Shown one piece after another: positions 2,764 through 40,441 of a DNA stretch of 64,000 bases; position 1 is the stretch's first letter; every line of letters begins with the position of its first letter. The DNA lies in assembly GCA_902570425.1 (NCBI GenBank), contig CACFYB010000002.1:62001-126000 (forward strand). The letters run 5' to 3'. The DNA comes from an uncultured Pelagibacteraceae bacterium (GTDB taxonomy: Bacteria > Pseudomonadota > Alphaproteobacteria > Pelagibacterales > Pelagibacteraceae). The notes beneath the pieces are model-generated. The model saw only the letters and a list, made by a program, of their open reading frames with translations, searched no databases and was not told the origin of the DNA. The translations under genes were made by a program, and so were the position numbers.

Positions 2764-3306
2764 ATGTTCGGTGAATTTCTAAATATAATATTAAAGTCTA
2801 TCAAATTAGATAAATCTCTTTATAGTGATGCAAAAAATTTTGGTGAAGCTTCAATATATTTTTCTGGAATTATAATGATATTAGATGGAATTGCAGGAGC
2901 CGTAGCGGCTAATACTATTGTTAAAACTGCAGTAGCCATGTCTGGCCTAACAGCAATTTTAACATGGTTCGTGTGGTCGACACTTATATTTGTTTTAGGT
3001 GTAAAAATTTTTCCCGATAAACAAACAAAAGTTTCTTATAAAAAAGTATTAACAGCAGTAGGCTTTGCCCATTCACCAGGCTTGATAAGATTTTTTGCAG
3101 TCACACCAGATTTAATGATACCAATAATTTTTTTAACACAATTTTGGATTTTTGCAGGTTTAATAATTTCTACAAAACAAATATTAAATTTTAAGTCGAA
3201 TTTTAAATCTTTTGGAATAGTTTTTTTATCATTCTTGATAATTGTTTTTTTATCAATTTCTTTCGTAATGAGCAGAATGAGTGCGCTTCCAATTAATCAA
3301 ATTTAA
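2764..3306 (+). CDS. Yip1-family integral membrane protein
   Basis: A 180-aa protein with about five hydrophobic segments and a short hydrophilic N-terminus. The arrangement, including a KVLTAVGFAHSPGLI stretch in the middle, matches bacterial Yip1-domain proteins, whose role is not established. It lies directly after the 31-aa membrane peptide. It ends convergently against the 53-aa CxxC protein on the other strand, overlapping it by 4 bases. Nothing in the sequence ties it to C1 metabolism. The family call is from overall pattern and is moderate. Confidence 0.6.
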   Translation: MFGEFLNIILKSIKLDKSLYSDAKNFGEASIYFSGIIMILDGIAGAVAANTIVKTAVAMSGLTAILTWFVWSTLIFVLGVKIFPDKQTKVSYKKVLTAVGFAHSPGLIRFFAVTPDLMIPIIFLTQFWIFAGLIISTKQILNFKSNFKSFGIVFLSFLIIVFLSISFVMSRMSALPINQI

Positions 3307-3464
3307 ATAGGAAAAATGGTTTTAGAAATTCTGCAAGATTTGCATATCTTAAAACCTGTTAAAATCAAATTTTGTGAAACACTTTCATCTTCCTTGTGAC
3401 ACTCGTCACAAATATCATTTAAATCTTTTAAGTCTTTTTCTTTTAAATCTTGATCATCAATCAT
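3303..3464 (-). CDS. Small 53-aa protein with two CxxC motifs
   Basis: Read on the minus strand from ATG at 3464 to TAA at 3303. The 53-aa product has an acidic, Lys-rich N-terminus and then CDEC (about 19-22) followed by CKSC (about 41-44), the spacing of a small zinc ribbon or rubredoxin-like knuckle. It overlaps the end of the DUF3726-type gene by 8 bases, so it is the last gene of that minus-strand run and probably coupled to it. It could carry zinc or an iron centre, or be a scaffold for its partners. The two cysteine pairs and the tight overlap argue it is real. Confidence 0.6.
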   Translation of the reverse strand: MIDDQDLKEKDLKDLNDICDECHKEDESVSQNLILTGFKICKSCRISKTIFPI

Positions 3465-4068
3465 TGTCTGTTAAACCAGCACCTGCAGCACCTTGTTTTA
3501 AACTATCTGTTTCCTCAACAAAAGTTTTTTCGGAAAGTTTGTAAAGATTTTTCCACTCTAAGTCGCTGAAGTTATCTTTGTTATCTAAAAAATTAATCTT
3601 AATATTTCTTGCTAAATTGGGGTATTTTTCCTCAATAAAATTTGAGGAGATGCTTACGTTATAGTTTAATAAAAATTGATTTTTATCAAAATCAAAAAAT
3701 ATTTTCTTTCCAATAACCTCTGAGGCTCTACTTAAGAAAGGTAAAAACAATATTGGATAAGCAATATTTTTAAATGAACAATTGTTAAATCTTTCTATAT
3801 CTCTTATTTGATCTAAAAAATTAACGCCAAGGTTGATTGGACAAAATTTATTTTTCTGAGGTTTATTTTCTTTTACAATTAACTTTAAACTCTCGAAATC
3901 ATTTAAGGTCTTATCTTTAAAATAAGAATTTAAGTTTTTTATGCCTGGAAATCCAAATACTTCTAATAATCTTATACATTTACCAACCTCCTCTGAAACA
4001 CCCCATGAAAACCCAGCGGCTCGGGTTGCTCTTTTTGATGTTGTTTCTATTTCACTTAGAGATTTCAT
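3457..4068 (-). CDS. DUF3726-type protein of unknown function
   Basis: A 203-aa soluble protein. Its N-terminus (SLSEIETTSKRATRAAGF followed by SWGVSEEVGK) matches my memory of the DUF3726 signature, in which an SLxEIE start precedes an A-rich helix and a GxxEE(V/A)GK segment. No catalytic motif is obvious. It sits 3 bases from the 553-aa unknown and overlaps the 53-aa CxxC gene by 8 bases, so these are one operon with the M19-like gene. The domain call comes from recall only. Function unknown; the neighbourhood suggests metabolism of a small methylated or amide-linked compound. Confidence 0.55.
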   Translation of the reverse strand: MKSLSEIETTSKRATRAAGFSWGVSEEVGKCIRLLEVFGFPGIKNLNSYFKDKTLNDFESLKLIVKENKPQKNKFCPINLGVNFLDQIRDIERFNNCSFKNIAYPILFLPFLSRASEVIGKKIFFDFDKNQFLLNYNVSISSNFIEEKYPNLARNIKINFLDNKDNFSDLEWKNLYKLSEKTFVEETDSLKQGAAGAGLTDND

Positions 4069-4071
4069 TAT

Positions 4072-5733
4072 TTAAGAGTCTGATTTATAAACCCAATGAT
4101 CATCATAATCTTTTAATTCATTAGGCAATGGTGCACCTTGAAACATGCATATTCTCAGCCATTTATCAGAACGTGGATCAAATTTTAATGCACCAAAAAA
4201 AGATAATTTTAATCTTAGCATATCTATTGGGATCGTGTCTTCACTAATTGTATTATCTTGAATTTCAGAATAAGGAAATTTTTCAATTATGAAAGCTCTT
4301 CTAACTACATGTCTTAAATCTGAGTTATCGCTTAAAAATTTATCAATAGTCATATCTTTTTTTGTTATCAATAATTTTTCATATAATTTTTTTATATCTC
4401 TAGCAATTGCAAGTGGTTGCTCTAACTCAGATCCTTGTTCCTCAAATCTGTCCGCAATTCTAGGTTCTTCTTTATTTTTTGAAATAAACCAAAATTTTTT
4501 ATAATTTTGCTTTTTTTCAAAATCAATTGTTAAAATATTTGAATATTTTGACTCAATTATTGTCCTTAATTCCTCAACTTTTCTATTTGTAGGTATAGTG
4601 AAATACTTATCTTCCTCGGAACTCATTTGTTTAACTAGCGGTTCTGTGATTTTGTTATATGGTTCCATCATCAAAGAAACGATATATTCAATACATTCTT
4701 CACAAGTTTCTTTTTCAGCCCACAAATATAATTCATTAAATGGGTAATCAATCTTAAAATCAAACTTAGTTTCTATAAAGTCTAAAAATTTTTTTACATC
4801 CTTTAATAAATCTTTTATCTTTTTTAACTGATACTCACTTTCAGTATTCCAACTTGTTATATTCTTAATTGAACTTCTAAGACATTGTTTGAATACATCT
4901 CTATCTTGTAAGTCTACTTTTTTAATTTCTCTAATTTTCTTTAGTACCTTTTCTCTACTCATGATCCAATTATTTAATAGAGTCGGATGGTTAACAATGA
5001 AAGGGGCCATGCCTAAGCCTGTTGAGTTTCCGATACCAAGGCTCTTACAAATTTTAGGATCTAGTTTAACAGCTTTTTTCGGGTTTTTATTCTTTGCCAC
5101 ATGATTAACTTGATCAAATGTAAATTGTCTTACTAAATAAACTAGCATCATTTCCAATCTAAATGGGCCATTTATTTCATCTCTATTTTTAATTCTAAAC
5201 CGATCTGCAAGTCCAAATTTACCTGAACCATAAACAGCAGTTGTCCTATAAAGATAACCAACCTTTTCTAATAAATCTAAATTCGGTTGTTTTCCGTTAC
5301 TTAAATTTTCCACAACGTGATCAAAAACTCTTATTGATTTATTTGCCCTAGATAAAGTTAACTCTTTATAAGATAGTCTGCCAACTTCTTGCTTGGGTAC
5401 TTCTTTTTTTAATCTATTAATATCATCTTTATTTGGAATACCATCATGCAAAGTAAACGCCGCATCCCATTTTGTAGCAATTACTCGGTCTGATCTTTCG
5501 TCGTCTTTTATTATATTTGCAAAACATATTAAAGAATAGACTCTATCCATCTTTCTAAATGAATAAACCGCAACACCAAATCCGTTTTTATCTAAAGTAA
5601 ATAAATCTCTATTATATTTCCAGTCCTTAAACTCACTTAAAAAACTTCTAAGAAAAGATAATTTTGACTGATGGAAAGATCCAAGTCTTGAAAGCTTCAT
5701 TATTATATTTGGATCTCTTAACTCAACTTTCAT
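4072..5733 (-). CDS. Conserved-looking 553-aa protein, function unknown
   Basis: I do not recognise this family. The protein is soluble: no signal peptide and no membrane helix. It is rich in charged residues. Features include a segment GIGNSTGLGMAPFIVNHP (about 233-250), a GSGKFGLADRFRIKNRDE region (about 170) and CEECIEY (about 344). The strong glycine/proline block in the middle looks like a ligand-binding or active-site loop. It lies 2 bases after the M19-like gene and 3 bases before the DUF3726-type gene, so all are one transcript. A large unknown enzyme or assembly protein for the neighbouring pathway is a fair guess, no more. Confidence 0.6.
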   Translation of the reverse strand: MKVELRDPNIIMKLSRLGSFHQSKLSFLRSFLSEFKDWKYNRDLFTLDKNGFGVAVYSFRKMDRVYSLICFANIIKDDERSDRVIATKWDAAFTLHDGIPNKDDINRLKKEVPKQEVGRLSYKELTLSRANKSIRVFDHVVENLSNGKQPNLDLLEKVGYLYRTTAVYGSGKFGLADRFRIKNRDEINGPFRLEMMLVYLVRQFTFDQVNHVAKNKNPKKAVKLDPKICKSLGIGNSTGLGMAPFIVNHPTLLNNWIMSREKVLKKIREIKKVDLQDRDVFKQCLRSSIKNITSWNTESEYQLKKIKDLLKDVKKFLDFIETKFDFKIDYPFNELYLWAEKETCEECIEYIVSLMMEPYNKITEPLVKQMSSEEDKYFTIPTNRKVEELRTIIESKYSNILTIDFEKKQNYKKFWFISKNKEEPRIADRFEEQGSELEQPLAIARDIKKLYEKLLITKKDMTIDKFLSDNSDLRHVVRRAFIIEKFPYSEIQDNTISEDTIPIDMLRLKLSFFGALKFDPRSDKWLRICMFQGAPLPNELKDYDDHWVYKSDS

Positions 5734-5735
5734 AT

Positions 5736-6701
5736 TTAAATTGTTTTATAAAAATTATACCAATTATTACCAAGAATTCCGTTAATTTCTATTTCAGAAA
5801 AACCCACTTTATTAAGTCCTTTTTCTAAATTTGCAAAACCCCTAGCATCTTCGAACCAGTCTGGTTGTTTCGGAAAGCCAGGTTTTTTTTTTGAACCCTC
5901 TCCATAATTTTTATTTTTTGACCATGTTCCATTTCTCATCCATTCAACAACCTTGTCTGGTTGATTTAAACAAAGATCCGAGCCTATACCAATATTTTTA
6001 ATATTCATTATTTCTGCCGTTCTTGCGACCATTTCACAAAAGCTCTCAAGAGTGCAATTTGTGTTATCTTTTAAATGATGAGGATAAAGTGATAATCCTA
6101 AAATTCCGTTACTATCACTTAATTCTTTTAAAAGTTTAGAGGATTTGTTTCGCTTAGCTGCATGCCAAAAAGATGGATTAGCATGAGTTATGGCTATAGG
6201 TTTTTCGCTTAACTCAATAGCATCAAAAGTACTTTTTTCTGCTGAATGAGACATGTCAATTACAACACCAACCCTATTCATTTCTTTGATAACCTCTTTT
6301 CCAAAGTTTGTAACTCCACTATCAACTTTTTCGTAACAACCAGTGGCTAATAGAGATTGATTGTTATAAGTTAATTGCATAAACCTGCATCCGAGCTGAT
6401 GAACTTTTTCAACTAAATTGATATCATCTTCAATTGGTGAGCAATTTTGAAAACCAAAAAAAATGGCAGTTTTTTTTTCTTTATTTGCTTTTTCTATATC
6501 TTTAAAATTTTTTCCTAAAAATATTAAATCTGAATTATCTTTGAACAAATTATCCCATTTTTTAATTTGTTCCCCTAACTCGTCAAAGTCCTCATGGTAT
6601 ACTATTGTAACGTGAACTGCATCTAATCCTGCTTTTCTATTTATTTCAAATATGTCTCTTGTCCAGTTACAATATTGTAAATTATCAATCTTAAATTTCA
6701 T
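5736..6701 (-). CDS. M19 (renal dipeptidase)-family protein lacking the first metal motif
   Basis: A 321-aa TIM-barrel amidohydrolase-like protein. Family segments are clear: FGFQNCSPIEDD (about 103-114), LTYNNQSLLATGCYE, EMNRVGVVIDMSHS (about 146-159) and AITHANPS. M19 enzymes normally begin with a DGHxD motif giving two metal ligands; here the matching place reads IDNLQYCNWTRDIFE, so that pair is missing. It resembles, from memory, the M19-like gene in the Pseudomonas glycine betaine/dimethylglycine cluster (PA5396 locus). It probably is not an ordinary dipeptidase. It is the first gene of the minus-strand run and divergent from purE. Confidence 0.7.
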   Translation of the reverse strand: MKFKIDNLQYCNWTRDIFEINRKAGLDAVHVTIVYHEDFDELGEQIKKWDNLFKDNSDLIFLGKNFKDIEKANKEKKTAIFFGFQNCSPIEDDINLVEKVHQLGCRFMQLTYNNQSLLATGCYEKVDSGVTNFGKEVIKEMNRVGVVIDMSHSAEKSTFDAIELSEKPIAITHANPSFWHAAKRNKSSKLLKELSDSNGILGLSLYPHHLKDNTNCTLESFCEMVARTAEIMNIKNIGIGSDLCLNQPDKVVEWMRNGTWSKNKNYGEGSKKKPGFPKQPDWFEDARGFANLEKGLNKVGFSEIEINGILGNNWYNFYKTI

Positions 6702-11737: not shown

Positions 11738-12322
11738 TTAAATAGATTTATATCCAAATTCTAAACAAGCATCAGTTATAGAGTGATGTAGCGACTCTCC
11801 AAAACTTCTTAAACCTGATACTCTTACCTTTTTTGGATTATCTGAAATAAAATCTATTGTTATATTGACTCCATTAAAAATTGAGTTTGCACATTCACCT
11901 TCTTTAAAAGAATTAATATCAAGTGGACATCCCTTTTTTAAAACTTCATTAATTAAATTACCCTCTAGCTCAATTATTGTTCTTGAATGTGAAATATTTG
12001 TGATTGCAAAATCTGTATCTTGCACACTATTTTTTACCTTTCCAATCAAATCTATCTTAGAAGAGAAGACCAACCAATTATCAGGACCTAACCATAATAT
12101 TCTAGTATTAGAGTTAGAAGATGATTTTAATGATGATGGAAGATTTAATCCATCCACTGAGATTTTTGATAGATTTAAATCAGAATTTTTATATTTTGCA
12201 ATTTGAAATATTAACAATTTGGAAACCTCTGAAATCTTTATTAGATCACTTTCATTTTTATTGTCATGGTCTCCAAATTTTCCCATTTTATGAACAAAAT
12301 TTAATGGTGAAATATTTGTCAT
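11738..12322 (-). CDS. soxG: Sarcosine oxidase-type gamma subunit
   Basis: A 194-aa SoxG-like subunit, the last of a four-gene operon and overlapping soxA by 4 bases. The family is a small GcvT-like fold that packs against the large subunit; here WLGPDNWLVF (about 76-85) and the C-terminal VSGLRSFGESLHHSI are the recognisable parts. Four-subunit enzymes of this kind oxidise sarcosine, or N-methylglutamate in the MgdABCD form, and pass the methyl carbon to THF. Sequence alone does not separate the two. Position and order make the call firm. Confidence 0.85.
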   Translation of the reverse strand: MTNISPLNFVHKMGKFGDHDNKNESDLIKISEVSKLLIFQIAKYKNSDLNLSKISVDGLNLPSSLKSSSNSNTRILWLGPDNWLVFSSKIDLIGKVKNSVQDTDFAITNISHSRTIIELEGNLINEVLKKGCPLDINSFKEGECANSIFNGVNITIDFISDNPKKVRVSGLRSFGESLHHSITDACLEFGYKSI

Positions 12323-15315
12323 GATCTTACCCTCTTTCCTTCATGGTCAACATAATGAGATGAAATCACCTCAACTTCAATTGCAGAGTTTTTAAGGGGA
12401 GAAACTGCAAATAATTTTTTTCCAATCATATTTTTTCCATCTTTAACTATTGCTAAAGAAAATGGATTATTATTCTCTACACTCCAACAAGATGAAGAGA
12501 CATGTCCTAATTTTGGATTTGGTAATTTAGCATTCTTATTTAGCACCAGGTGTGATCCCTCTGGGATACTAGTCTTTTTATCTATTGGGACTAAACCAAC
12601 AATTTTTTGTCTATCACTATTATTAAATGCCTCTTTCTGTAAAGATCTTTTACCAATAAAGTCTTTTTTATTAGAAACTAAACCTTCCAAAGAAACATCG
12701 TAAGGAATAGTTCTGCCATCTAATTCCGGGCCAGCTACATGACCCATTTCAATTCTTAAAGTAGATAATGCCTCAGTTCCATAAGGTTGAATATTAAATT
12801 CTTTTCCAATTTCAATCATTTTTTCCCACATAAAAAGACCATAGTCAGACTCGACATTTATTTCATAGGCTAACTCACCAGAAAATGAAATCCTAAATAT
12901 TTTAGCATTTACTCCAAATAAATTTCCTTCTGTATATCCCATGAAAGGAAGGGCTTCGTTACTTACATCTAAATCAGGAAATAATTTTGCTAGTACTTTT
13001 CTTGACTTTGGGCCTGCAAGTGCTGCTCCAGCCCATTGTTCTGTTGTTGATAAAACATTAACTTTTAGTTCTGGCCAAACAACCTGAAGATAATATTCTA
13101 AATGAGATAAAACATTGGCTGCTTGTGCAGTTGTAGTGGTCATATGATAATGGTTTTCAGAAATTCTAGTAGTTGTTCCATCATCCATCACTATTCCATC
13201 CTCTCTTAACATTACCCCATATCTTGCTTTACCAATAGGTAGTTTTAACCATGCATTTGTATAAACTCTATTTAAAAATTCTGCTGCGTCTGGTCCTTTG
13301 ATATCTATTTTTCCGAGTGTTGTTACATCACAAATTCCAACATGCTCTCTAACATTTTTGGCTTCCCTTTTTGAAGCTTCAAACAAATTTTCCTTACCTT
13401 GTTTGTAATATCTTGGTCGTTTCCAAGCCCCAGCATCAACAAAAACAGCATTATTTTTTTCATGCCATGTATGCATTGGAGTTTTTCTAGTTGGCATATA
13501 TTCCATATCAACTTCCCTTCCAACAATTGTACCAATAGTAATTGGAGTAAAAGGAGGTCTAAAGGTAGTATGACCAACTTGAGGGACAATCTTTTTTTCG
13601 ACATTTGCAACTAACTGAAGTCCATTAAGGTTGCTAGTTCGACCTTGATCAGTCGCCATACCCAATGTTGTATACCTTTTAACATGTTCTATTGACCTGT
13701 AACCTTCGCGTAAAGCTACTTCAATATCCGACACCGCTACATCATTTTGAAAATCCACAAAACGTTTAAAATTTTTATTTTTTGGTAAAGGTGAGCACCA
13801 GAACTTGTCATGGGGATTTTTTTTGGTTTCATTTGAATTTGGCGTTGAAGTAGAATTATTGTTATTAGTAATCTTTTTAGAAAGATCAAATCCTGTTTTA
13901 AATCCATCATTTAAAGTATCTTTTAATGTAAAAGTACCTTTAGAGGCACCAACAGATGTTTCATTTTGCTTTGATATATTAGGAACGAAGGCATCTATTT
14001 GATCATTAAACTTAAGTTTATTTCCAGACTGTGATGCCAAATGAACAGTCGGTGTCCAAAAACCAGAAACACATATACAATCACATTTGATAATTTCGGA
14101 ATTTTTAAATTCTGTTTTATCATTATTTAATTCGCCAATTAGAGCTGATTTAACCTTTTTATATCCATTTGCAGCAATTACTGCATAGGAAAATTTTATT
14201 TGTATATTTTGACTTTTTGCCGTTTCTATTAACTCAGATGAATGTTCTTTTCTAGTATCCAAAATTATAGGATCAACTCCTTGTTTTTTAAATTCTAAAG
14301 CTGTTTCATACGCGCTATCATTATTTGTAAATATTAGAGGCTTTTTACCAACTAATACCCCATAAACTTTGATATATTCTTTTGCAGCTGCGCACAAAAA
14401 TATTCCAGGGGTATCATTATTTCCAAAAACTATTGGTCTTTCTATTGAACCTGTAGACAATAAAACTTCTTTTGCTCTAATATACCATAATCTTTGTCTT
14501 GGAGTATATTTTGGTTTATTTTCTAAATGATCTCCAGTTCTTTCAAACATAACAGTCATGTTATGATCGTAATAGCCAAAAACTTGTGATCTATTTTTAA
14601 CAATGACATTTGGCATTTCTTTTAATTCAGTGATGATTTTATCTGTCCAAGCTTTACCTGATAAATTGTCTATGGTTACATCATCTGTTAATAACGAACC
14701 ACCAAACCTTGGTTTATCTTCAGCAAGAATAACCTTTGCGCCATTTTTTGCAGCAGAATAGGCGCTAGATAAACCAGCGGGTCCTGATCCCGCAACTAGT
14801 AAATCACAATATTCATATTTATGTTCATATCTTTCTTTATCCTTCTCAATTGATGCAACACCCAGACCGGCTGCTTTTCTTATAAATGGCTCATAAATTT
14901 TGTACCAAAAACTTTTTGGCCACATAAAAGTTTTATAATAAAAACCAGCTGGAAAAAATCTATTTAAAAAATTGTTTATAGCTCCAACATCAAATTCTAC
15001 AGACGGCCAACAATTTTGACTTGAAGCCTCAATGCCCTCAACCAATTCAAATTCTGTTGCATTAACGTTTGGTTCAGAATGACCATTTAATTGAATTTGT
15101 AATTTTGCATTAGGTTCATCAACACCTGCACCAAAAAAACCTCTTGGTCTATGATATTTAAAACTTCTACCAACTAAATGAATGCCATTTGCAAGCAAAG
15201 CTGAAGCTAATGTATCTCCTTCATATCCGTTATATTTTTTGCCATTAAACTTAAAAGATATTTCTTTATTTCTGTTTAATAAACCTTCATTACTAAGACG
15301 ATACGATTGGCTCAT
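12319..15315 (-). CDS. soxA: Sarcosine oxidase-type alpha subunit
   Basis: A 998-aa multidomain protein of normal SoxA length. The N-terminal 2Fe-2S-like fold (SFKYHRPRGFFGAGVDEPN, about 51-69) is followed by an NAD/FAD Rossmann region (GSGPAGLSSAYSA, about 175-187), and the C-terminal third is a GcvT-type THF-binding domain (DIKGPDAAEFLNRV; ISFSGELAYEIN). The enzyme would oxidise sarcosine or N-methylglutamate at the SoxB flavin and capture the C1 unit as 5,10-methylene-THF. It overlaps SoxD and SoxG by 4 bases on each side. The operon is divergent from fhs, which also feeds the folate pool. Confidence 0.92.
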   Translation of the reverse strand: MSQSYRLSNEGLLNRNKEISFKFNGKKYNGYEGDTLASALLANGIHLVGRSFKYHRPRGFFGAGVDEPNAKLQIQLNGHSEPNVNATEFELVEGIEASSQNCWPSVEFDVGAINNFLNRFFPAGFYYKTFMWPKSFWYKIYEPFIRKAAGLGVASIEKDKERYEHKYEYCDLLVAGSGPAGLSSAYSAAKNGAKVILAEDKPRFGGSLLTDDVTIDNLSGKAWTDKIITELKEMPNVIVKNRSQVFGYYDHNMTVMFERTGDHLENKPKYTPRQRLWYIRAKEVLLSTGSIERPIVFGNNDTPGIFLCAAAKEYIKVYGVLVGKKPLIFTNNDSAYETALEFKKQGVDPIILDTRKEHSSELIETAKSQNIQIKFSYAVIAANGYKKVKSALIGELNNDKTEFKNSEIIKCDCICVSGFWTPTVHLASQSGNKLKFNDQIDAFVPNISKQNETSVGASKGTFTLKDTLNDGFKTGFDLSKKITNNNNSTSTPNSNETKKNPHDKFWCSPLPKNKNFKRFVDFQNDVAVSDIEVALREGYRSIEHVKRYTTLGMATDQGRTSNLNGLQLVANVEKKIVPQVGHTTFRPPFTPITIGTIVGREVDMEYMPTRKTPMHTWHEKNNAVFVDAGAWKRPRYYKQGKENLFEASKREAKNVREHVGICDVTTLGKIDIKGPDAAEFLNRVYTNAWLKLPIGKARYGVMLREDGIVMDDGTTTRISENHYHMTTTTAQAANVLSHLEYYLQVVWPELKVNVLSTTEQWAGAALAGPKSRKVLAKLFPDLDVSNEALPFMGYTEGNLFGVNAKIFRISFSGELAYEINVESDYGLFMWEKMIEIGKEFNIQPYGTEALSTLRIEMGHVAGPELDGRTIPYDVSLEGLVSNKKDFIGKRSLQKEAFNNSDRQKIVGLVPIDKKTSIPEGSHLVLNKNAKLPNPKLGHVSSSCWSVENNNPFSLAIVKDGKNMIGKKLFAVSPLKNSAIEVEVISSHYVDHEGKRVRS

Positions 15316-15581
15316 TTTATTTCTTCATTTATTTTTGTTGTTTGAAAAATTTCGTGTGTAACAGTATCCCTTTGAACTTTAAACCATTGTCTGCAGCCAG
15401 CTGTGTGATGCCACAACTCCACATGTTTTCCCCTAGGACTTTTTCTTAAATAAACAAACTCATTCCATTTTTCGTCCGATATATCTTGATTTAGCTCTGG
15501 TCTTCTTATTGTTCCATCTCCACCGTAAGCAAATTCTTTTTGTGATCTATATCCACAAAATGGACATTTAATACTAAGCAT
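15312..15581 (-). CDS. soxD: Sarcosine oxidase-type delta subunit
   Basis: An 89-aa zinc-binding subunit. CPFCGYR (about 6-12) and the downstream H-x3-GC (HHTAGC, about 62-67) are the zinc ligands of the SoxD family. Length is normal. It starts directly after soxB (stop and start adjoin) and overlaps soxA by 4 bases. The SoxB-SoxD-SoxA-SoxG order is the standard order of the family. Confidence 0.92.
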   Translation of the reverse strand: MLSIKCPFCGYRSQKEFAYGGDGTIRRPELNQDISDEKWNEFVYLRKSPRGKHVELWHHTAGCRQWFKVQRDTVTHEIFQTTKINEEIK

Positions 15582-16838
15582 TTAAGAAATCCAAGTTTTT
15601 GTTCCCAGGCCTTTTTCGTCTAACAAGTATCCTTTTGAAAATCTATTTAAACTAAAACCCTCATTTAATTCGTGAACTCTATCTTGAGCTATTGTATGGG
15701 CAAAGGTCCATCCGGAAGATGGAACAGATTTAAAACCTCCATAACACCAACCACAATTTAAATATAACCCTTCAATATGAGTTTTATCTATTATCGGAGA
15801 TCCATCCATAGACATATCCATTATGCCTCCCCAAGTTCTAAGCATCTTTAATCTACTTAAAAAAGGAAATAGCGCAATACCGCCAGTTAAAACATGTTGG
15901 ATTGTAGGTAGATTTCCTTTTTGTGCATAACTATTATATCCATCCAAGTCACCTCCCATTACCATTTCACCTTTATCTGATTGACTAATATAAAAATGTC
16001 CAGCACCAAATGTGACCACTCCATCTAAAACAGGTTTAACTGGTTCTGAGACACAAGCTTGTAAAAGATGAGTCTCAATCGGCAATGTCATGTTCAATTT
16101 TTCTGCTAAAACATTTGTACTTCCAGCAACACAAAGACCAATTTTTTTTGTCTTAATATCTCCTCTTGAGGTTCTAACTCCTTGAATTTTTCCACCAGAA
16201 ACATCGAACCCTGTAACTTCGCAATTTTGAATTATATCTACTCCCATTGAGTCTGCTTGACGAGCATAACCCCATGCAACTGCATCATGTCTCGCGGTAC
16301 CTGCACTTGGTTGTGCTAAACCACCAAATATCGGATATCTAACATTCTCTGAAAAATCTGCCATTGGAATAATTTTTTTTACTTCTTCTCTATTCAATAA
16401 AATCGCATCTATTCCATTTAATCTCATTGAATTACCTCTTCGAGCGTAAGTATTCATTTGAGCATCGGAGTGAGCTAAATTAATTATTCCTCGAGGAGAA
16501 AACATGACGTTAAAATTTAATTCCTGACTCATATTTCTCCATAAATTCATCCCAAATTCATTAAATCTTGCATTATCATCATACATAAAGTTTGATCTAA
16601 TAATTGTAGTATTTCTTCCAATATTACCTCCCCCAATCCATCCTTTTTCAATAATTGCAACATTTGTGATATTGTGTTCTTTTGCTAAATAATAGGCTGT
16701 TGCTAAACCATGGCCACCACCTCCAATTATAACTACATCATACTCTTTTTTAGGAGACGGATCTTTCCAAGCTAAATCCCATTTTTCATGATTAGAAAAA
16801 GCGTTTTTAATTAGGCTAAATATTGAATACTTTTGCAT
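15582..16838 (-). CDS. soxB: Sarcosine oxidase-type beta subunit (FAD)
   Basis: A 418-aa DAO-fold flavoprotein and the first gene of the soxBDAG operon. It has the dinucleotide-binding motif GGGGHGLATAYYL (about 37-49), then EKGWIGGGNIGRNTTIIRSN, which carries the covalent-FMN and FAD region of the family. Length is normal. It performs the amine oxidation step; MgdA of N-methylglutamate dehydrogenase is a close relative, so the substrate may be sarcosine or N-methylglutamate. A 128-base gap with a small inverted repeat separates it from fhs. Confidence 0.92.
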   Translation of the reverse strand: MQKYSIFSLIKNAFSNHEKWDLAWKDPSPKKEYDVVIIGGGGHGLATAYYLAKEHNITNVAIIEKGWIGGGNIGRNTTIIRSNFMYDDNARFNEFGMNLWRNMSQELNFNVMFSPRGIINLAHSDAQMNTYARRGNSMRLNGIDAILLNREEVKKIIPMADFSENVRYPIFGGLAQPSAGTARHDAVAWGYARQADSMGVDIIQNCEVTGFDVSGGKIQGVRTSRGDIKTKKIGLCVAGSTNVLAEKLNMTLPIETHLLQACVSEPVKPVLDGVVTFGAGHFYISQSDKGEMVMGGDLDGYNSYAQKGNLPTIQHVLTGGIALFPFLSRLKMLRTWGGIMDMSMDGSPIIDKTHIEGLYLNCGWCYGGFKSVPSSGWTFAHTIAQDRVHELNEGFSLNRFSKGYLLDEKGLGTKTWIS

Positions 16839-23889: not shown

Positions 23890-25221
23890 ATGACAAAAGT
23901 AGCAATTATAGGAGCTGGTCCATGTGGTTTGTCAATGCTCAGAGCGTTTGAATTAGCAGAAAAAAATAGTGAAAAGACTCCTGAAATAGTTTGTTTTGAA
24001 AAACAAGAGGACTGGGGTGGGTTGTGGAACTATAACTGGAGAACTGGTTCTGATCAGTATGGAGATCCAGTGCATAACAGTATGTACAGATATCTATGGT
24101 CAAATGGACCAAAAGAGTGTTTAGAATTTGCAGATTATTCATTTGATGAACATTTTGGAAAAGCTATTCCTTCTTTTCCTCCTAGGGCAGTTTTATATGA
24201 TTACATTATTGGAAGAGTAAGCAAAGGAAAAATAAAAAATAAAATCAAATTTAACACTAGAGTAGTAAACACAGTTTATAAAAATGATAAATTCGAACTA
24301 AGTTATCAAGATAAAGTAAACAATAAAGTATTAAAAGACAATTTCGACTTTGTTGTAGTGTCCACTGGACATTTTTCTGTTCCTTACATTCCGGAGTATG
24401 AAGGAATGAATTCTTTTCCTGGAAGAATTATGCATTCACATGACTTTAGAGATGCAGAGGAATTTAGAAATAAAGATGTAATAGTTCTAGGCAGTAGTTA
24501 TTCTGCCGAAGATGTGGCGCTTCAATGTAACAAATATGGTGCTAAAAGTGTAACTATTGGATATAGACATAACCCTATGGGATTTAAATGGCCGAAAGGA
24601 ATGAAAGAAGTTCATTACTTAGATAGACTAGAAGGAAAAAAAGCAATTTTTAAAGATGGTGCTGAGCAAGAAGCTGATGTGGTAATTTTATGTACTGGGT
24701 ACCTTCATCATTTTCCTTTTTTAGAGGAAAATTTACAGTTAAAAACTAGAAACAGACTTTATCCACCAAAGTTATATAAAGGTGTAGTTTGGCAAAATAA
24801 TCACAAACTTTTATATCTTGGTATGCAAGATCAGTTTCACACATTTAATATGTTTGACTGTCAGGCTTGGTACGCAAGAGATGTAATAATGAATAAGATT
24901 AAAGTTCCAAATGATAAGGAAATTGAAAGTGATATTAATAAATGGGTTGCAATGGAAGAAAAATTAGAAAATCCAGATCAAATGATTGATTTTCAAACAG
25001 AATATACAAAAGAGCTTCATGAAATGTCAGATTATCCTAAAATTGATTTTGAATTAATTAGAAAACATTTTAAAGAATGGGAACATCATAAAGTAGAGGA
25101 TATATTAACTTATAGAAACAAATCTTTTTCTTCACCCGTAACTGGTTCTGTTGCCCCAATTCACCATACTCCATGGGCAACTGCTATGGATGACTCATTA
25201 AAAACTTTTTTAGATAAATAA
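23890..25221 (+). CDS. tmm: Trimethylamine monooxygenase (FMO family)
   Basis: A 443-aa flavin monooxygenase that oxidises trimethylamine (and likely other tertiary amines or sulfides) to the N-oxide with NADPH and O2. The FAD motif GAGPCG is at 8-13, the FMO signature FPGRIMHSHDF at 176-186 and the NADPH motif GSSYSA at 201-206; the tail around LCTGYLHHFPFLEE is also typical. Length matches characterised bacterial Tmm (about 450 aa). It converges with the TMAO transporter operon, stop codons 7 bases apart, and with tdm nearby gives the TMA-to-DMA route. The symbol rests on these motifs and the neighbours. Confidence 0.93.
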   Translation: MTKVAIIGAGPCGLSMLRAFELAEKNSEKTPEIVCFEKQEDWGGLWNYNWRTGSDQYGDPVHNSMYRYLWSNGPKECLEFADYSFDEHFGKAIPSFPPRAVLYDYIIGRVSKGKIKNKIKFNTRVVNTVYKNDKFELSYQDKVNNKVLKDNFDFVVVSTGHFSVPYIPEYEGMNSFPGRIMHSHDFRDAEEFRNKDVIVLGSSYSAEDVALQCNKYGAKSVTIGYRHNPMGFKWPKGMKEVHYLDRLEGKKAIFKDGAEQEADVVILCTGYLHHFPFLEENLQLKTRNRLYPPKLYKGVVWQNNHKLLYLGMQDQFHTFNMFDCQAWYARDVIMNKIKVPNDKEIESDINKWVAMEEKLENPDQMIDFQTEYTKELHEMSDYPKIDFELIRKHFKEWEHHKVEDILTYRNKSFSSPVTGSVAPIHHTPWATAMDDSLKTFLDK

Positions 25222-25228
25222 ATTAAAA

Positions 25229-27382
25229 TTAATCTATACCTAGATGTTTTTTTCTTTTTTGAACGTAAGCTCTAATTAAATTATCAAATATTAAAGCTAT
25301 GAAAGCTACACATATACCAAGTGTTAATCCAATACCTGCACCTTTTTTATCTGATAATGCTTTTAAAATATATTGACCTAAATCTTCTGTTCCAATGAAT
25401 GCGCCAATAATTACCATAAATAGTGCAAATACAATTGTTTGATTAATACCAAGCATCATGTGCGGGAATGCTAAAGGAAATTCTATTTTTGTTAATCTTT
25501 GAAATTTATTTACACCCGACATGGTTGCTGCATCATGTAAACCAGCTGGAACACTTCTAAGTCCTTCAATTGTATATCTAGTTGCAGGTATAGTTGCATA
25601 GACTATAACTGCGATTAATACGGATGTATCAGTTATACCAAATAACATCATTACAGGTATCAAGTATACGAAAGATGGGAATGTTTGAAAAATATCACAT
25701 ACACCCAACATAAAATTTGCCGAATGTTTATTTTGAAAACATAAAGTTCCAACAGTAAATCCGATAATACAAGAAACAATTACTCCAAAGGTTGCCATAT
25801 ATGCTGTAACTAATGCCCTATCCCACCAAGGACTAAATGCGATAAATAAAGTTAAAGCACAAACCACTAAGGCAGAACGTAAACCTCCGATTAAATATCC
25901 TGCACCGACAACCAAAACTATTGTGGCAATTGCTGGCATCCTTAAATACAGCGCTCTCATTGGTTGAAGCACCTCTTTAATTAACCAGGTGTTAAATGCT
26001 TTGATATATACGAAGAAAGTATCAAAAATCCAATCAACACCTTTATTCCAAAAATCAGCAGTTGATATTCCTTTGTTGTGTGGAATCTCAAACAAATAAT
26101 TAAATGTGCCTTTAAATAAAAATGTTCCAACATAAGCAAGTATTATTCCAATCACTACTGTTGCAGCAAAAAATAGTAAATTTTTATTTCTTTGAAAGAA
26201 TGTTAGGTTACCAAAATAATCTTCTTGTTTATTAGCCCAAGCTAATGACATCTTATCTAATAAAATTGCAATTAAGCTAATACATAAGCCTGCCTCTAGA
26301 GCTAATCCAATGTTTAATTGGTTTAATGCTAATAATAAATTAAATCCTAAACCCTTTGCACCAATAAAAGCTGAAATAACTGCCATGGAAAAACACACCA
26401 TGATGACTTGGTTTACTCCAATCAAAATATCTCTTCTAGCAGTCGGAATTAATACTTTAAACATTAATTGAAAATTATTACATCCACTCATTCTGCCAGC
26501 TTCAATTACTTCTGGTGGTACAGCTCTTAAACCTAGTATAGTTAACAATATCATTGGTGGAATAGCCACAACCATAGTTATTATTACTGCAGCATGATCA
26601 CCAACACCAAAAAGAACTAACGCGGGAACCAAAACTGCGTATTGTGGCATTGTCTGCATTACTAATAATATTGGATACAAAGCTTTCTCAACACGTTTAC
26701 TTTTAAATGCTGCTATCCCTAAGCCTAGGCCAAAAACAAATGACAGCGGAGCTGCAACTAATATAAATGAAAGAGTTTGCATTGAGGGTTTCCATTGACC
26801 AAAGATAGAAATGTAAACCATAGTTAAACCTGCAAACAAAGCTAGACCTTTACCGCTAACTTTATAAGAAAGCAACGCTGCACCTGCTGCTACAATAGTC
26901 CAAGGCAAACCTGGTAATTCTGCCCAAGGGTTTTTGTCTATCCAATCCCAACTTGTAAAAGCTACAATTGTTTCAAGACCACCTAGTAAAATTTCTCTAA
27001 TCAACTCTATTAAAAAAGTCATGAATGCAGTCAAATTCCTACTTATTTGTAAAACTATCGGACGACTTTTAAATTCTTGTGTATCTTCATTCCAAACTTC
27101 AATGGGCATCCATTCATTCATCAAGAAAAATAATGAATCATTAATCCAAATAGGTAGCCAACCTAATAATGGAGGTAATCTCCAGAAAACGTCAAAAGCA
27201 TAATATCTTACCTCTTTACCCAAAAACACATAGCTACTTTGATTTGGATCCTTAACGAATTCTGCTTGACCTCGGATAAATTTATACGTTTCAGGGACTT
27301 CGATTGCAAAACATAAAGCAAAAAAAACAATTAACAGAAATAACCATTGAAATGTCTTAGGATATTTTTTTAAAAGTTCCAT
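25229..27382 (-). CDS. tmoW: TMAO/betaine ABC transporter, fused double permease
   Basis: A 717-aa inner membrane protein with two ProW-type permease halves, the first about 190-410 and the second about 490-715. Each carries the EAA-type loop that contacts the ATPase: AGRMSGCNNFQLMFKV and AATMSGVNKFQRLTKI. The long N-terminal part has extra helices. The frame opens at a TTG at 27412, inside tmoV, but the ATG at 27382 lies just after the tmoV stop and is preferred. Single-chain double permeases are known for TmoW and choline/betaine systems. It converges with tmm. The TMAO assignment rests on the operon; glycine betaine or choline remains possible. Confidence 0.87.
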   Translation of the reverse strand: MELLKKYPKTFQWLFLLIVFFALCFAIEVPETYKFIRGQAEFVKDPNQSSYVFLGKEVRYYAFDVFWRLPPLLGWLPIWINDSLFFLMNEWMPIEVWNEDTQEFKSRPIVLQISRNLTAFMTFLIELIREILLGGLETIVAFTSWDWIDKNPWAELPGLPWTIVAAGAALLSYKVSGKGLALFAGLTMVYISIFGQWKPSMQTLSFILVAAPLSFVFGLGLGIAAFKSKRVEKALYPILLVMQTMPQYAVLVPALVLFGVGDHAAVIITMVVAIPPMILLTILGLRAVPPEVIEAGRMSGCNNFQLMFKVLIPTARRDILIGVNQVIMVCFSMAVISAFIGAKGLGFNLLLALNQLNIGLALEAGLCISLIAILLDKMSLAWANKQEDYFGNLTFFQRNKNLLFFAATVVIGIILAYVGTFLFKGTFNYLFEIPHNKGISTADFWNKGVDWIFDTFFVYIKAFNTWLIKEVLQPMRALYLRMPAIATIVLVVGAGYLIGGLRSALVVCALTLFIAFSPWWDRALVTAYMATFGVIVSCIIGFTVGTLCFQNKHSANFMLGVCDIFQTFPSFVYLIPVMMLFGITDTSVLIAVIVYATIPATRYTIEGLRSVPAGLHDAATMSGVNKFQRLTKIEFPLAFPHMMLGINQTIVFALFMVIIGAFIGTEDLGQYILKALSDKKGAGIGLTLGICVAFIALIFDNLIRAYVQKRKKHLGID

Positions 27383-27389
27383 GCTTAAA

Positions 27390-28415
27390 TTAATTTTTTT
27401 TTCTTCCCCCAAAAACTGTATTGATTATTTTAGCCGGATTAATAGAACCAATAACATTCTTATTATTATCTATTACAGCTACTGGCCTTTCTTGAGTTAG
27501 AATTTTTTCTGCAACATTTTCTATAACTTCATCTTTTAAAACTTTTAAATTCCCTAGATTATCTTTTGACGAATCCATCACATCTTCAATTAATAAAACT
27601 TTCTCCCTAGGCACTTCTTCAGTGAATTTTCTTACATATTCAGTTGCTGGATTTAATACAATATTAGCTGGGGTATCTAACTGCTCAATTAAACCATCCT
27701 TCATAATTGCAATACGGTCAGCAAGTTTTAACGCCTCATCAAAATCATGAGTAATAAACATAATTGTTTTTTGTAATTTTTCCTGAAGCCTCAAAAACTC
27801 ATCTTGCATTTCTTTTCTAATTAATGGGTCTAAGGCAGAAAAAGGTTCATCTAAAAACCATATATCAGGCTCTACCGCTAGAGATCTTGCGATACCTACT
27901 CTTTGCTGTTGTCCTCCTGATAATTCTCTTGGAAAATAATTTTCTCTTCCATCAAGTCCAACCAACTTAACCATGTCCATTGCTTTACTAATACTATTCT
28001 CAGTTTTGACACCTTTAATTTGAAGTGGAAAAGCTATATTTTCAACAACAGTTTTATGTGGAAGCAAAGCGAAACTTTGAAAAACCATTCCCATTTTATT
28101 TCTTCTAAGTTCAATGAGTTCTTTATTATTAAGTTGTAATAAATCTTGGCCTTCTATAAAAATTTTTCCACCAGTTGCATCAGTTAATCTAGAAATGCAT
28201 CTTAATAATGTTGATTTACCTGAACCAGATAAACCCATAACAACCAACATTTCTCCTTTTGAAACTTCAAATGATGCATTATTTACACCAACTATACATC
28301 CGTTATCTTGAAAAGTTCTAGCATCAACATTGCCATTAGACTCTTGGAGCATTTTTTGAGCGTTAGCTCCAAAAATTTTATAAACATTTTCACACTTGAT
28401 AACTGGTTCAGACAT
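27390..28415 (-). CDS. tmoV: TMAO/betaine ABC transporter ATP-binding protein
   Basis: A 341-aa ProV-type ATPase. Walker A is GLSGSGKST (about 61-69), the ABC signature is LSGGQQQRVGI and Walker B is IWFLDEPFSALDP, all intact. The N-terminal KCENVYKIFG and the C-terminal regulatory region with a single CBS-like segment are usual for osmolyte importers. It powers uptake through TmoW. There is no obvious Shine-Dalgarno at the ATG, but a perfect one lies 62 bases upstream beside the stop of the preceding gene. Confidence 0.9.
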   Translation of the reverse strand: MSEPVIKCENVYKIFGANAQKMLQESNGNVDARTFQDNGCIVGVNNASFEVSKGEMLVVMGLSGSGKSTLLRCISRLTDATGGKIFIEGQDLLQLNNKELIELRRNKMGMVFQSFALLPHKTVVENIAFPLQIKGVKTENSISKAMDMVKLVGLDGRENYFPRELSGGQQQRVGIARSLAVEPDIWFLDEPFSALDPLIRKEMQDEFLRLQEKLQKTIMFITHDFDEALKLADRIAIMKDGLIEQLDTPANIVLNPATEYVRKFTEEVPREKVLLIEDVMDSSKDNLGNLKVLKDEVIENVAEKILTQERPVAVIDNNKNVIGSINPAKIINTVFGGRKKN

Positions 28416-28481
28416 AAATATTTATTTAAGTTATATGAAATTAAGATAAAATTAAATCCTTAATATTAATGTTTTTCCTCC

Positions 28482-29033
28482 TTAAAAATTTTTAATGTAA
28501 TAAACCCTAGTATCAATTCCTGTGCTTAAAAAACTTAATGCCTCACCACTCACACTTATAGACTCATTAACTCCAACGTTATTTCCACTTACTGTAAAAC
28601 CCGCATAACATTTATTTTTTTCTTCATCCCACTTAACAAAAGTTTCATCAATTTTATTCCCATTAATTGTATAAATTTCGTGTGCTCTAAAATTTAAAAA
28701 ATTTGCACCCATAATTGCTCTTTGAGGAATGAGCTTTGTTGCTTTACAAACCTGTTCATATACTTCTTCTGTTAATTTATAATGATTAGTGCCATCAAAA
28801 GTTACTAATATTCCAGAAGGTAATTTAGATATTAATTCACTTAATTTTTTTTCTTCAGCAATTCTTTCTTCCTCCAATTTCATTTTTCTTACCAACTCAT
28901 CACCACCACCAAACATAATATTTAAAACAGAAAATGAAAAAAATATAACAAAGACTATTAGCACCAAACCTCCAAATTGTTTTACTGTCTCTGGCAAGTC
29001 TTTAATTTTATTTAAATAATTTTCTTTTGACAT
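28482..29033 (-). CDS. Unknown single-pass membrane protein in the tmo operon
   Basis: I do not recognise the family. An earlier frame opens at 29129, but the ATG at 29033 overlaps the MORN gene stop by one base (TAATG) and gives a 183-aa protein with one membrane helix at about 20-41 (LVLIVFVIFFSFSVLN). A charged coiled-coil-like stretch rich in E, K and R follows, then a soluble C-terminal domain with two cysteines. Topology suggests a membrane anchor with a periplasmic or cytosolic domain. It lies between tmoX and tmoV. Confidence 0.6.
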   Translation of the reverse strand: MSKENYLNKIKDLPETVKQFGGLVLIVFVIFFSFSVLNIMFGGGDELVRKMKLEEERIAEEKKLSELISKLPSGILVTFDGTNHYKLTEEVYEQVCKATKLIPQRAIMGANFLNFRAHEIYTINGNKIDETFVKWDEEKNKCYAGFTVSGNNVGVNESISVSGEALSFLSTGIDTRVYYIKNF

Positions 29034-29410
29034 TATTCTTGTAGCTTTCCATTTTTCCATGTGCCTGATTTTTGTGTTCCATCTGATGAAATAAAAGTTC
29101 CTGTTCCATTCATAAATCCTTTTGCCCATTCACCTTCATAAGTCGAGCCATCAGGAAAAGTTAGAACACCTACTCCACTCCATTCACTATTTTTAAACTC
29201 ACCTTTATAAATGTATCCGTTGGGCCAAGTTTCAACTCCTTGGCCATTTTTTTTAGTTCCTACCCATTCACCTTCATAAGTAGTTTTATCTGTATAAACC
29301 CATTTACCAAAACCATTTTCACAATTTCCTTCTTTACAACCAGTGCTTCTTGCTAATGCAACTGATGAAATGAGCAAACTTAAAATTATGCTAAGAACGT
29401 ATTTTTTCAT
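29033..29410 (-). CDS. MORN-repeat secreted protein
   Basis: A 125-aa precursor with a signal peptide (MKKYVLSIILSLLISSVALA, cleaved near residue 20) and then three MORN repeats of the Y-x-G-E-W/F...G-x-G-x-x-T pattern (YEGEWVGTKKNGQGVETW, YKGEFKNSEWSGVGVLTF, YEGEWAKGFMNGTGTF). MORN repeats often contact lipids or act as spacers. It sits between two other unknowns in the TMAO transporter operon and is coupled to the downstream gene. No enzyme function is suggested. Export to the periplasm is inferred from the signal. Confidence 0.75.
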   Translation of the reverse strand: MKKYVLSIILSLLISSVALARSTGCKEGNCENGFGKWVYTDKTTYEGEWVGTKKNGQGVETWPNGYIYKGEFKNSEWSGVGVLTFPDGSTYEGEWAKGFMNGTGTFISSDGTQKSGTWKNGKLQE

Positions 29411-29445
29411 AACAACACTTTACACAAAATTAACTAAAAAAAAAA

Positions 29446-29907
29446 TCAGACTTTTTGGTCATGTTTAATGCACGAATATATTGAAATATATTTTTCTGCA
29501 TTTTCACTTTTTAAATTTCTTGTAATTTCATGAATCAGTTCTCCTGTTTTTCTAGTTATTATGCCTGACTCTGAATAATTGTTTTCTTGATCAATTGATT
29601 TAAATAAAACTACATCTTTATTCACAATTTTTACATTTAGTTTTGCTGACTTTGAAAGAAACATTGACAATCCTTTAATTTGAAGTGTCTCTGGTTGTTT
29701 TGACTGTATTTCAAATTTATCCAAACCTTTTTCATCCAAATCTTTAGCTAAAAAAGTTTGATAATTGTATTCTGAATTTTTAATTATTTTTTTATCTAAA
29801 TTACAGACAAACTTTAGATAAATATTTTCATTAATGCTCACATCTTTTGCTAAAGTTTGATTAAAAAATAATAAACTAATGAATATACTTAAAAAATATC
29901 TAATCAT
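29446..29907 (-). CDS. Exported protein of unknown function
   Basis: A 153-aa precursor. The N-terminus MIRYFLSIFISLLFFNQTLA is a signal peptide, cleaved near residue 20. The mature protein is polar, has cysteines near residues 35 and 148, and shows no known domain. It is the first gene after the tmoX terminator, 35 bases before the MORN gene. A periplasmic or outer-membrane-associated role is plausible. Seen: signal and position. Unknown: function. Confidence 0.55.
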   Translation of the reverse strand: MIRYFLSIFISLLFFNQTLAKDVSINENIYLKFVCNLDKKIIKNSEYNYQTFLAKDLDEKGLDKFEIQSKQPETLQIKGLSMFLSKSAKLNVKIVNKDVVLFKSIDQENNYSESGIITRKTGELIHEITRNLKSENAEKYISIYSCIKHDQKV

Positions 29908-29920
29908 TAAATTTTTCCTT

Positions 29921-29956
29921 AAAAAAAATCTCCCCCAACATTGTTGGGAGAGATTT
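29921..29956 (-). terminator. Intrinsic terminator after tmoX
   Basis: A 14-base-pair stem with one mismatch and a three-base loop (29926-29956), followed on the minus strand by a run of eight T. This is a textbook rho-independent terminator between tmoX and the downstream transporter genes. It would give more tmoX transcript than tmoVW. Confidence 0.85.
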
Positions 29957-29978
29957 AAAGATTTAATAGCAATTAACC

Positions 29979-30926
29979 TTATTTAGTAAAAGCTTTCCAA
30001 ACTTTCTTGTTCTTTTTCAACCATGCTTTTGCAGCATCTTCGTGAGTCATTTTGTCAATGTCAACTAAAGCTGCCATTGCACCAATTTGACTTGTTGTGA
30101 AAGAAAGTTTTTTGAACATAGCTGCTGCTTTTGGATGAGTTTTTGGAAAATCAGCATTAACTGCTTTTTTCAAATAACCATCTGGCGAACCACATTTTCC
30201 GTCTCCACCATCTTCAGGTCTGCAACCTGCTGTATATGGAGGAAAATCAATAAATGTAAAACCAGCACCATCTGTAAAGTTAGGCGTCCAGTTAAAGATG
30301 ATTGTTCCTCTTCCTTCTTTTTCAGCTGCTGCTAACTCCGCCCAAAGTGCATCTGCACTTCCAGCAAATTTAACCCACCAAAGATCTCCTAAACCTAAAG
30401 CGTCAACCCTTTGTGGAATTAAGTCACCATGCCAAGTTTGTGGTCCTTCCAACATTCTTCCTTTTCCATCTGGAGAGTCAGGTGTTGTAAAGTTTTTAGC
30501 ACAGTCGGGATTTTTTAAAGCAGTCCAGTCTGGTAGTCCTGGGCATAATCCTTTTTCAGCAACCCAATTCGGATATCCCATATCTTCAAGTGTTCTCGCT
30601 TCATGGTCACCCCAATCAAGCAATCCACCTTTATCCAATGCAGTTGTGAAAGATTTACCAAAAGCAGACTCCCACACTTCGTGTGATAAAGTTACGTCGC
30701 CAATTCTAATCGACTCGTACACTGCTTGTGAGTCAGCGTTTACATATTTAACATTATTTCCCATGTCTTCCATGATACCACCAATAACGTAAGCCATTAC
30801 AATTTGGCTTGACCAGTTATGTGTTGGGATCACAATGGGCTTTTTACTATCTGCTGCATTTGATATTCCAGTAAAACTCACCGCTGAAATTATCATTGCA
30901 GATACTAATGATATTATTTTTCGCAT
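29979..30926 (-). CDS. tmoX: TMAO-binding periplasmic protein of an ABC transporter
   Basis: A 315-aa ProX/OpuAC-type solute-binding protein. The signal peptide runs to about residue 24 (ISNAA-DSK), and the mature N-terminus HNWSSQIVMAYVIGGIMEDM is typical of quaternary-amine binders. Several tryptophans (LGDLWWVKF, DALWAEL) could form the aromatic cage for a methylated amine. A strong GGGGA-type ribosome site precedes it, and a terminator follows, so high expression is expected. It is divergent from tdm over 99 bases. It may also bind betaine or choline. Confidence 0.88.
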   Translation of the reverse strand: MRKIISLVSAMIISAVSFTGISNAADSKKPIVIPTHNWSSQIVMAYVIGGIMEDMGNNVKYVNADSQAVYESIRIGDVTLSHEVWESAFGKSFTTALDKGGLLDWGDHEARTLEDMGYPNWVAEKGLCPGLPDWTALKNPDCAKNFTTPDSPDGKGRMLEGPQTWHGDLIPQRVDALGLGDLWWVKFAGSADALWAELAAAEKEGRGTIIFNWTPNFTDGAGFTFIDFPPYTAGCRPEDGGDGKCGSPDGYLKKAVNADFPKTHPKAAAMFKKLSFTTSQIGAMAALVDIDKMTHEDAAKAWLKKNKKVWKAFTK

Positions 30927-31025
30927 TTATTCCCCTTTCTTAATATTAAGTATGAATAGTATGTGCTTAAGTAAAATGATAGTCAACTACTAGATATTTA
31001 TATAATATAATAATAGATTATAAAA
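30927..31025. promoter_or_regulatory. Divergent tmoX-tdm control region with a palindrome
   Basis: The 99-base gap is very AT-rich. It holds a perfect palindrome CTTAATATTAAG at 30939-30950, between the tmoX Shine-Dalgarno and the promoter zone, and a TATAATATAATAAT stretch before tdm that could supply a -10. The palindrome may be a repressor site; the MarR-like gene after tdm is a candidate binder. Unproven. Confidence 0.35.
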
Positions 31026-33715: not shown

Positions 33716-33796
33716 TTATCATAAAACTATTACTTATAATTTATATATATATAAAAAATTATATATTTACGCCGCACGAAAAATAAAGATGTAAGC

Positions 33797-35122: not shown

Positions 35123-35190
35123 ACTTCAAGCCTAGACACTAATAAATTTTTCAGCTACGCTTGAGTAAATATTAATTCATTGAGGGGAAA

Positions 35191-36660: not shown

Positions 36661-36684
36661 AAGTTACTTAAGAGAGGAAAATTT

Positions 36685-39889: not shown

Positions 39890-39897
39890 AGATAAAA

Positions 39898-40314: not shown

Positions 40315-40342
40315 TAACACAATCTAAAGTTGATTTTTTTTT

Positions 40343-40370
40343 TAAAACCTTGTGTCAATAATAGGTTTTA
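40343..40370 (+). promoter_or_regulatory. Stem-loop in the amt leader region
   Basis: TAAAACCT (40343-40350) pairs exactly with AGGTTTTA (40363-40370) across a 12-base loop, in the 127-base gap between the 138-aa gene and amt. No T-run follows, so it is not a clear terminator. It could be a leader structure for amt. Confidence 0.35.
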
Positions 40371-40441
40371 TAAGATTGTTTCATTTGTCACATGTGTTGA
40401 AATTTTATAGGGTTTTTTAAAAACTAATATGGAGAGAGGAT

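Follow-up and report, generated by a model that had tools for sequence, protein, structure and literature searches.

We found that three adjacent genes of an uncultured Pelagibacteraceae bacterium, encoding an M19-like protein, a 553-residue protein (hereafter U553) and a DUF3726 protein, form a conserved module. We propose that they are obligate partners and that their products are probably the subunits of one enzyme system, whose assembly into a complex we infer. From their gene context, we estimate a probability of roughly 0.6 that the three proteins form the core of the catabolism of an N-methylated heterocyclic carboxylate of the betaine type, for which homarine (N-methylpicolinate) is the most likely candidate. 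Homarine occurs widely as a metabolite in the sea, where SAR11 is one of the most abundant bacterial groups of surface waters.

A four-gene operon with a three-gene core

The genes lie in a window of 64,000 nucleotides, the whole stretch of DNA analysed (contig CACFYB010000002.1, positions 62,001 to 126,000), and are listed with the other features discussed here in Table 1. The first and second genes are separated by 2 bp and the second and third by 3 bp, while the third and fourth overlap by 8 bp; the open reading frame coordinates thus confirmed the initial annotation, which had described four tightly packed genes with gaps of 2-3 bases and one overlap. The M19-like protein matched PF01244 with an E-value of 9.7e-71 (239 bits against a cut-off of 26) and the DUF3726 protein matched PF12525 with an E-value of 2.6e-20. 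No Pfam or NCBIfam family matched the 53-residue CxxC protein. Mean pN/pS values of 0.12 (M19-like), 0.17 (U553), 0.32 (DUF3726) and 0.21 (CxxC) indicated purifying selection on all four genes, which also argues that the short CxxC gene is real.

Table 1. Features of the window
Feature	Position	Strand	Description or basis
M19-like gene (1st gene)	6701-5736	minus	321 aa, PF01244
U553 (2nd gene)	5733-4072	minus	553 aa, conserved family without Pfam/NCBIfam model
DUF3726 gene (3rd gene)	4068-3457	minus	203 aa, PF12525
CxxC gene (4th gene)	3464-3303	minus	53 aa, two CxxC motifs
Heterotetrameric sarcosine-oxidase-like genes, most likely mgd	11738..16838	minus	beta-subunit grouping
Methylamine island: tmm, betaine-type ABC transporter (minus strand), tdm, gmaS, mgsABC, amt	23890..41842		open reading frame list
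MTHFR-like gene and GcvT/DmdA-like gene	537-2616		overlapping pair
180-aa gene	2764-3306		no Pfam/NCBIfam match

In 38 of 40 Pelagibacter loci all four genes were arranged and closely spaced as in the window, and the first three were met again throughout the class, so that the arrangement cannot be put down to chance. The order M19-U553-DUF3726 was constant in every Pelagibacter locus read. The module stays together in related genomes, where the initial annotation had allowed that its genes might turn out to be scattered. The proposed operon is thus genuine and has a core of three genes; the CxxC gene, however, falls outside the conserved core and is restricted to Pelagibacter, being present in none of 10 loci from a second family of SAR11 and in none of the further alphaproteobacterial loci that were inspected.

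Distribution of the module

U553 was carried by 105 of 147 Pelagibacterales genomes. Within the genus Pelagibacter, to which comparison with named loci assigns the window, it was present in 65 of 76 genomes and, among the 147 genomes searched, in no other genus of that family, while it was widespread in the second SAR11 family. The latter retains the trio with different neighbours, namely an aldehyde dehydrogenase and a Pot-type ABC transporter, and sometimes has Ldh_2, gmaS-mgsABC or Mgd/Sox-like genes nearby. An even draw of 289 alphaproteobacteria, in a total that includes two Pelagibacter genomes, yielded 39 carriers, and a few other proteobacteria also have the gene. In a set of 30 such U553 loci, an M19 gene could be identified in 23 and a DUF3726 gene in 21, nearly always adjoining. 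Named carriers outside SAR11, drawn from plasmid records, include Phaeobacter inhibens DSM 17395, Ruegeria TM1040, Sulfitobacter, Aliiroseovarius, Mesorhizobium and Shinella. A deep branch of about 30% identity (Sinorhizobium meliloti pSymB and Variovorax) has U553 grouped with a dipeptidase-like gene and a counterpart of DUF3726, in a different order. On a plasmid of the haloarchaeon Natrinema versiforme, U553 and a DUF3726 counterpart are accompanied by genes for a BCCT transporter and an aldehyde dehydrogenase.

In Mesorhizobium 131-2-1, U553 is fused to DUF3726 (L214:9950-12394). Another U553 protein (genome G203, L109:9050-11656) has a C-terminal extension of about 290 residues, the similarity of which to DUF3726 is only marginal. 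Long open frames at two further loci (L201 and L203), considered as M19-U553 fusions, were rejected as out-of-frame read-through.

The M19-like protein and its metal site

The nearest PDB structure to the M19-like protein was 2i5g, a Pseudomonas amidohydrolase (E-value 6.8e-55), and renal dipeptidase was matched at 8e-19. The initial annotation had stated that the protein lacks the DGHxD motif, and this was borne out: IDNLQYCNW occupies that position in the window protein, and the residues of the site were surveyed in an alignment of 82 sequences, 81 of them from the module. Where the position was covered, H20 of the motif was replaced by leucine (L8) in all module sequences and D22 by tyrosine (Y10), rarely by Phe, Met or Cys. 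The metal-bridging E125, the loss of which had been overlooked, is a glutamine (Q85) in 2i5g and in every module sequence covering that position. With the equivalents of H20, D22 and E125 lost, the canonical binuclear site cannot form as it does in the dipeptidases.

The module protein nevertheless shares with M19 (PF01244) the fold family and the beta-site residues His198, His219, Arg230 and Asp288, retained as H152, H173, R184 and D242 with a single exception, at H152; the DGHxD motif and the bridging glutamate of an active M19 dipeptidase are missing. Possibly, a single metal is held by H152, H173 and D242, or none is bound. Four further residues (H30, H36, H209 and C244) mark the module's own M19-like clade and are absent from 2i5g, which is therefore placed in a sister clade, although the two are alike in the loss of H20 and D22 and in the exchange of the bridging Glu for Gln. 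Judged from the alignment, the unusual metal site is a hallmark of the whole M19-like clade including 2i5g, rather than a peculiarity of this gene.

DUF3726 as a putative reduced Ldh_2 domain

An AlphaFold2 model of the DUF3726 protein had a mean pLDDT of 90.3, with low values over the last 20 residues. When the model was searched with Foldseek, the top 22 matches were all Ldh_2 dehydrogenases (best E-value 0.015, probability 1.00), and a second structure comparison gave 15 Ldh_2 entries with Z-scores of 8.7-10.5 over 156-178 residues, the next unrelated chain having a Z-score of 3.5. In an hhalign comparison the DUF3726 and operon Ldh_2 profiles aligned in register over 58 columns with a probability of 51% and a P-value of 1.6e-4. 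Furthermore, a 317-residue protein of Natrinema versiforme (L217:8707-9660) matched the DUF3726 profile and scored 36.2 bits with Ldh_2, against a cut-off of 38.8, and is apparently an evolutionary intermediate between the two families.

DUF3726 thus has in common with Ldh_2 (PF02615; for example Delta1-piperideine-2-carboxylate reductase, 1wtj, and ureidoglycolate dehydrogenase) the fold of the main domain. By alignment, however, it is without the SHG motif of the catalytic His and about 100 middle residues that correspond to the NAD-binding part, and it has an additional C-terminal tail. This tail, GAGAGLxDND (AGAGLTDND in the window), is among the best conserved parts of the protein and yet is predicted to be unstructured, which suggests that it docks to a partner. 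The evidence that DUF3726 is a degenerate, cut-down Ldh_2 domain is good, though not yet conclusive, and in many cases an intact Ldh_2 gene lies next to it. The fold relationship is new in this analysis, and a literature search for DUF3726 found no match.

U553 has a confident predicted fold

Charged residues are invariant at many positions of U553, as is a single histidine. No Pfam or NCBIfam family was found for the window protein, no Pfam family for 22 members, and no PDB match by sequence; profile comparison showed no relation to DUF3726 or Ldh_2. The AlphaFold2 model, built from 26 sequences, was confident (pLDDT 87.5, pTM 0.89), and searching the PDB with the whole-chain model gave a best Foldseek E-value of 1.2 and no VIA match with a Z-score of at least 5. 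The protein is thus predicted to have a well-defined fold that finds no significant match in the PDB, which does not in itself prove the fold to be new.

Genomic context of the module

The roseobacter operons have the order LysR, ALDH (aldehyde dehydrogenase), M19, (BCCT), U553, DUF3726, followed in most by Ldh_2, as in TM1040 and Aliiroseovarius. The operon Ldh_2 protein was closest to Delta1-piperideine-2-carboxylate reductase (307 bits, against 225 for the next). Substrates of this reductase are six-membered cyclic imines with a 2-carboxylate. The titles of two papers indicate that the related DpkA of Pseudomonas putida serves to make N-methylated amino acids (PMC6775277, PMC8070496). Transporters of the betaine type, BCCT and ProXWV-like, recur near the module and suggest a betaine as substrate. 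In TM1040 and Aliiroseovarius, Mgd/Sox-like genes and a helix-turn-helix regulator lie directly upstream of the module, an arrangement which resembles the tmaR-mgd synteny of PMC13390433.

The window itself carries Mgd-like genes 5 kb from the operon. Their beta subunit grouped with the MgdA encoded in a clear gmaS-mgs cluster, to which it is 60% identical, and apart from the sarcosine oxidases of the PDB (52%). Beta subunits found beside the module elsewhere fell with the same MgdA group, split from the PDB sarcosine oxidases at 100/100 in a tree whose references were one Mgd and two nearly identical Sox sequences. On this grouping, the window genes most likely encode N-methylglutamate dehydrogenase. 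Pelagibacter has two SoxB-like paralogues of about 58-60% identity (e.g. G000:C2:77585-78838 and G000:C4:25348-26580), one in the methylamine island (Mgd-like) and the other elsewhere, the latter possibly a true sarcosine oxidase.

In the methylamine island, tdm was identified by the NCBIfam model of TMAO demethylase (1087 bits), and the other gene names come from sequence reading. The N-methylglutamate pathway (gmaS, mgsABC, mgdABCD) thus shares an island with the module; Mgd-like genes adjoin the module in several lineages, and gmaS-mgs lies directly beside it in one SAR11 relative. The module is not, however, part of the pathway as described, and some genomes have the module without the pathway. 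Among Pelagibacter genomes, a window-type Mgd-like gene was present in 60 of 65 with U553 against 5 of 11 without (Fisher p = 0.0007), an association confounded by shared ancestry and by location in one island. The initial annotation had raised a link with the use of methylated compounds, and this is strengthened by the tmm/tdm/gmaS/mgs island, the Mgd-like genes, the betaine transporters, the aldehyde dehydrogenase and the kinship with 2i5g.

A proposed role in homarine catabolism

Taken together, the betaine transporters, the reductase of the piperideine-2-carboxylate type, the aldehyde dehydrogenase and the putative N-methylglutamate dehydrogenase fit a route from homarine to N-methylglutamate. 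In such a route, the trio would open the N-methylated ring. The M19-like barrel would bind the carboxylate substrate and carry out hydrolysis or hydration with a metal site that is reduced at best; U553 would be the main new catalytic body, and DUF3726 a non-redox adaptor docking into a partner by its conserved tail. Where present, the Ldh_2 enzyme would act on a cyclic imine in the manner of Delta1-piperideine-2-carboxylate reductase, and the aldehyde dehydrogenase would oxidise the ring-opened semialdehyde. The product would be N-methylglutamate, from which Mgd would form glutamate and methylene-THF. We also entertain, at odds well short of even, that the trio is a new kind of enzyme complex, which opens the ring of N-methylated pyridine or piperidine carboxylates. 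Such a complex would combine a hydrolase barrel deficient in its metal site, a dehydrogenase domain that has lost the part binding the cofactor, and a large protein with a fold not seen before; neither an oxygenase nor a flavin or metal-redox part would be recognisable in it.

Ferrer-Gonzalez and co-workers are said to have described homABCDER, a homarine operon found in Rhodobacterales, SAR11 and SAR116 that encodes one regulator and five enzymes. The roseobacter operon has the same gene number (LysR as regulator, with ALDH, M19, U553, DUF3726 and Ldh_2), and both systems have SAR11 carriers and a link to Mgd and N-methylglutamate; the comparison is one of gene count and carriers. Pelagibacter, in contrast, has three of the five genes plus the CxxC gene, with no adjacent regulator, ALDH or Ldh_2. 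That homarine catabolism involves Mgd is stated in PMC13390433, citing Ferrer-Gonzalez et al. 2026 (doi 10.1038/s41564-026-02313-7).

Should the module be the homarine-degrading core, its genes could be counted in metagenomes and would point to an uncharacterised enzyme system. Provided that the published hom genes prove to be the same as these, the pathway has already been described. Whatever the substrate, DUF3726 is probably explained as a cut-down Ldh_2 domain, U553 is defined as a conserved protein family without a model or known fold, and a whole M19-like clade is seen to be without the canonical binuclear metal site.

Alternative substrates and functions

Several U553-positive SAR11 relatives (e.g. 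G014, G031, G050 and G061) yielded no clear Mgd- or Sox-like gene, so that oxidation of N-methylglutamate by Mgd is not obligatory. In Pelagibacter, the best counterparts of the operon ALDH (about 40% identity, against 75-77% for the sister family) and of the operon Ldh_2 (about 38%) were likewise not clear orthologues. Either the steps are catalysed by other enzymes, or the substrate and the route vary with the lineage. The transporters beside the module, which may be of BCCT, ProXWV, Pot, TRAP or branched-chain type, also suggest that substrates may differ among lineages. It is thus conceivable, although rather unlikely, that the module is of the kind proposed but serves other N-methylated cyclic or linear betaines, with homarine used in some lineages only or in none; candidates are pipecolate betaine (homostachydrine), trigonelline, proline betaine and carnitine-like compounds. 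Consistent with this, plant-associated bacteria and haloarchaea are among the carriers, Mesorhizobium and another locus (L105) have an MTTB-type methyltransferase and a dimethylglycine-dehydrogenase-like protein near the module, one locus (L093) has an ectoine-hydrolase-like gene, and S. meliloti has an aminotransferase and SSADH. The marine roseobacter operons, however, are near-uniform, with their Delta1-piperideine-2-carboxylate-reductase-like enzyme and, in two, Mgd-like genes, which argues against this reading.

The use of glycine betaine and dimethylglycine as in Pseudomonas, with the M19-like protein as an accessory of a demethylation pathway, was the lead of the initial annotation and now appears improbable. 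The closest solved relative, 2i5g, is from Pseudomonas, where we take its gene to sit in the dgcAB cluster, and the window has betaine and TMAO genes; a literature search on Pseudomonas PA5396 and dgcA yielded nothing usable. In contrast, 2i5g has none of the four module-specific residues, and the operon context is one of an aldehyde dehydrogenase and an imine-reductase-like enzyme, with no dgcAB pair observed beside the module, which points instead to an N-methylated pyridine- or piperidine-2-carboxylate. Least probable of all, and by our estimate very unlikely, is a true dipeptidase operon, in which the M19-like protein would obtain its metal ligands from elsewhere and cleave dipeptides or N-acyl amino acids. 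While the strong M19 profile match, the retained His pair, Arg and Asp, and the other conserved His and Cys residues are compatible with such an activity, the replacement of the H20, D22 and E125 equivalents in essentially all 81 module sequences and the absence of peptide-related neighbours oppose it.

Neighbouring genes

The MTHFR-like gene of the window overlaps a 454-residue GcvT/DmdA-like gene, which scored 230 bits with the DmdA model against a cut-off of 410. This pair lies next to the operon in almost every Pelagibacter locus for which long flanks were read; it may encode a THF-dependent demethylase. The 180-residue protein, apparently membrane-spanning, is under purifying selection (pN/pS 0.20), and its gene is convergent with the CxxC gene, with an overlap of 4 bp at its end. 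Downstream of DUF3726, a 239-residue open reading frame occupies the usual place of the 180-residue gene at one locus (L022), a 244-residue frame is found at another (L024), where the CxxC gene is absent, and at a third (L050) a 733-residue frame without a Pfam match stands in place of the CxxC gene.
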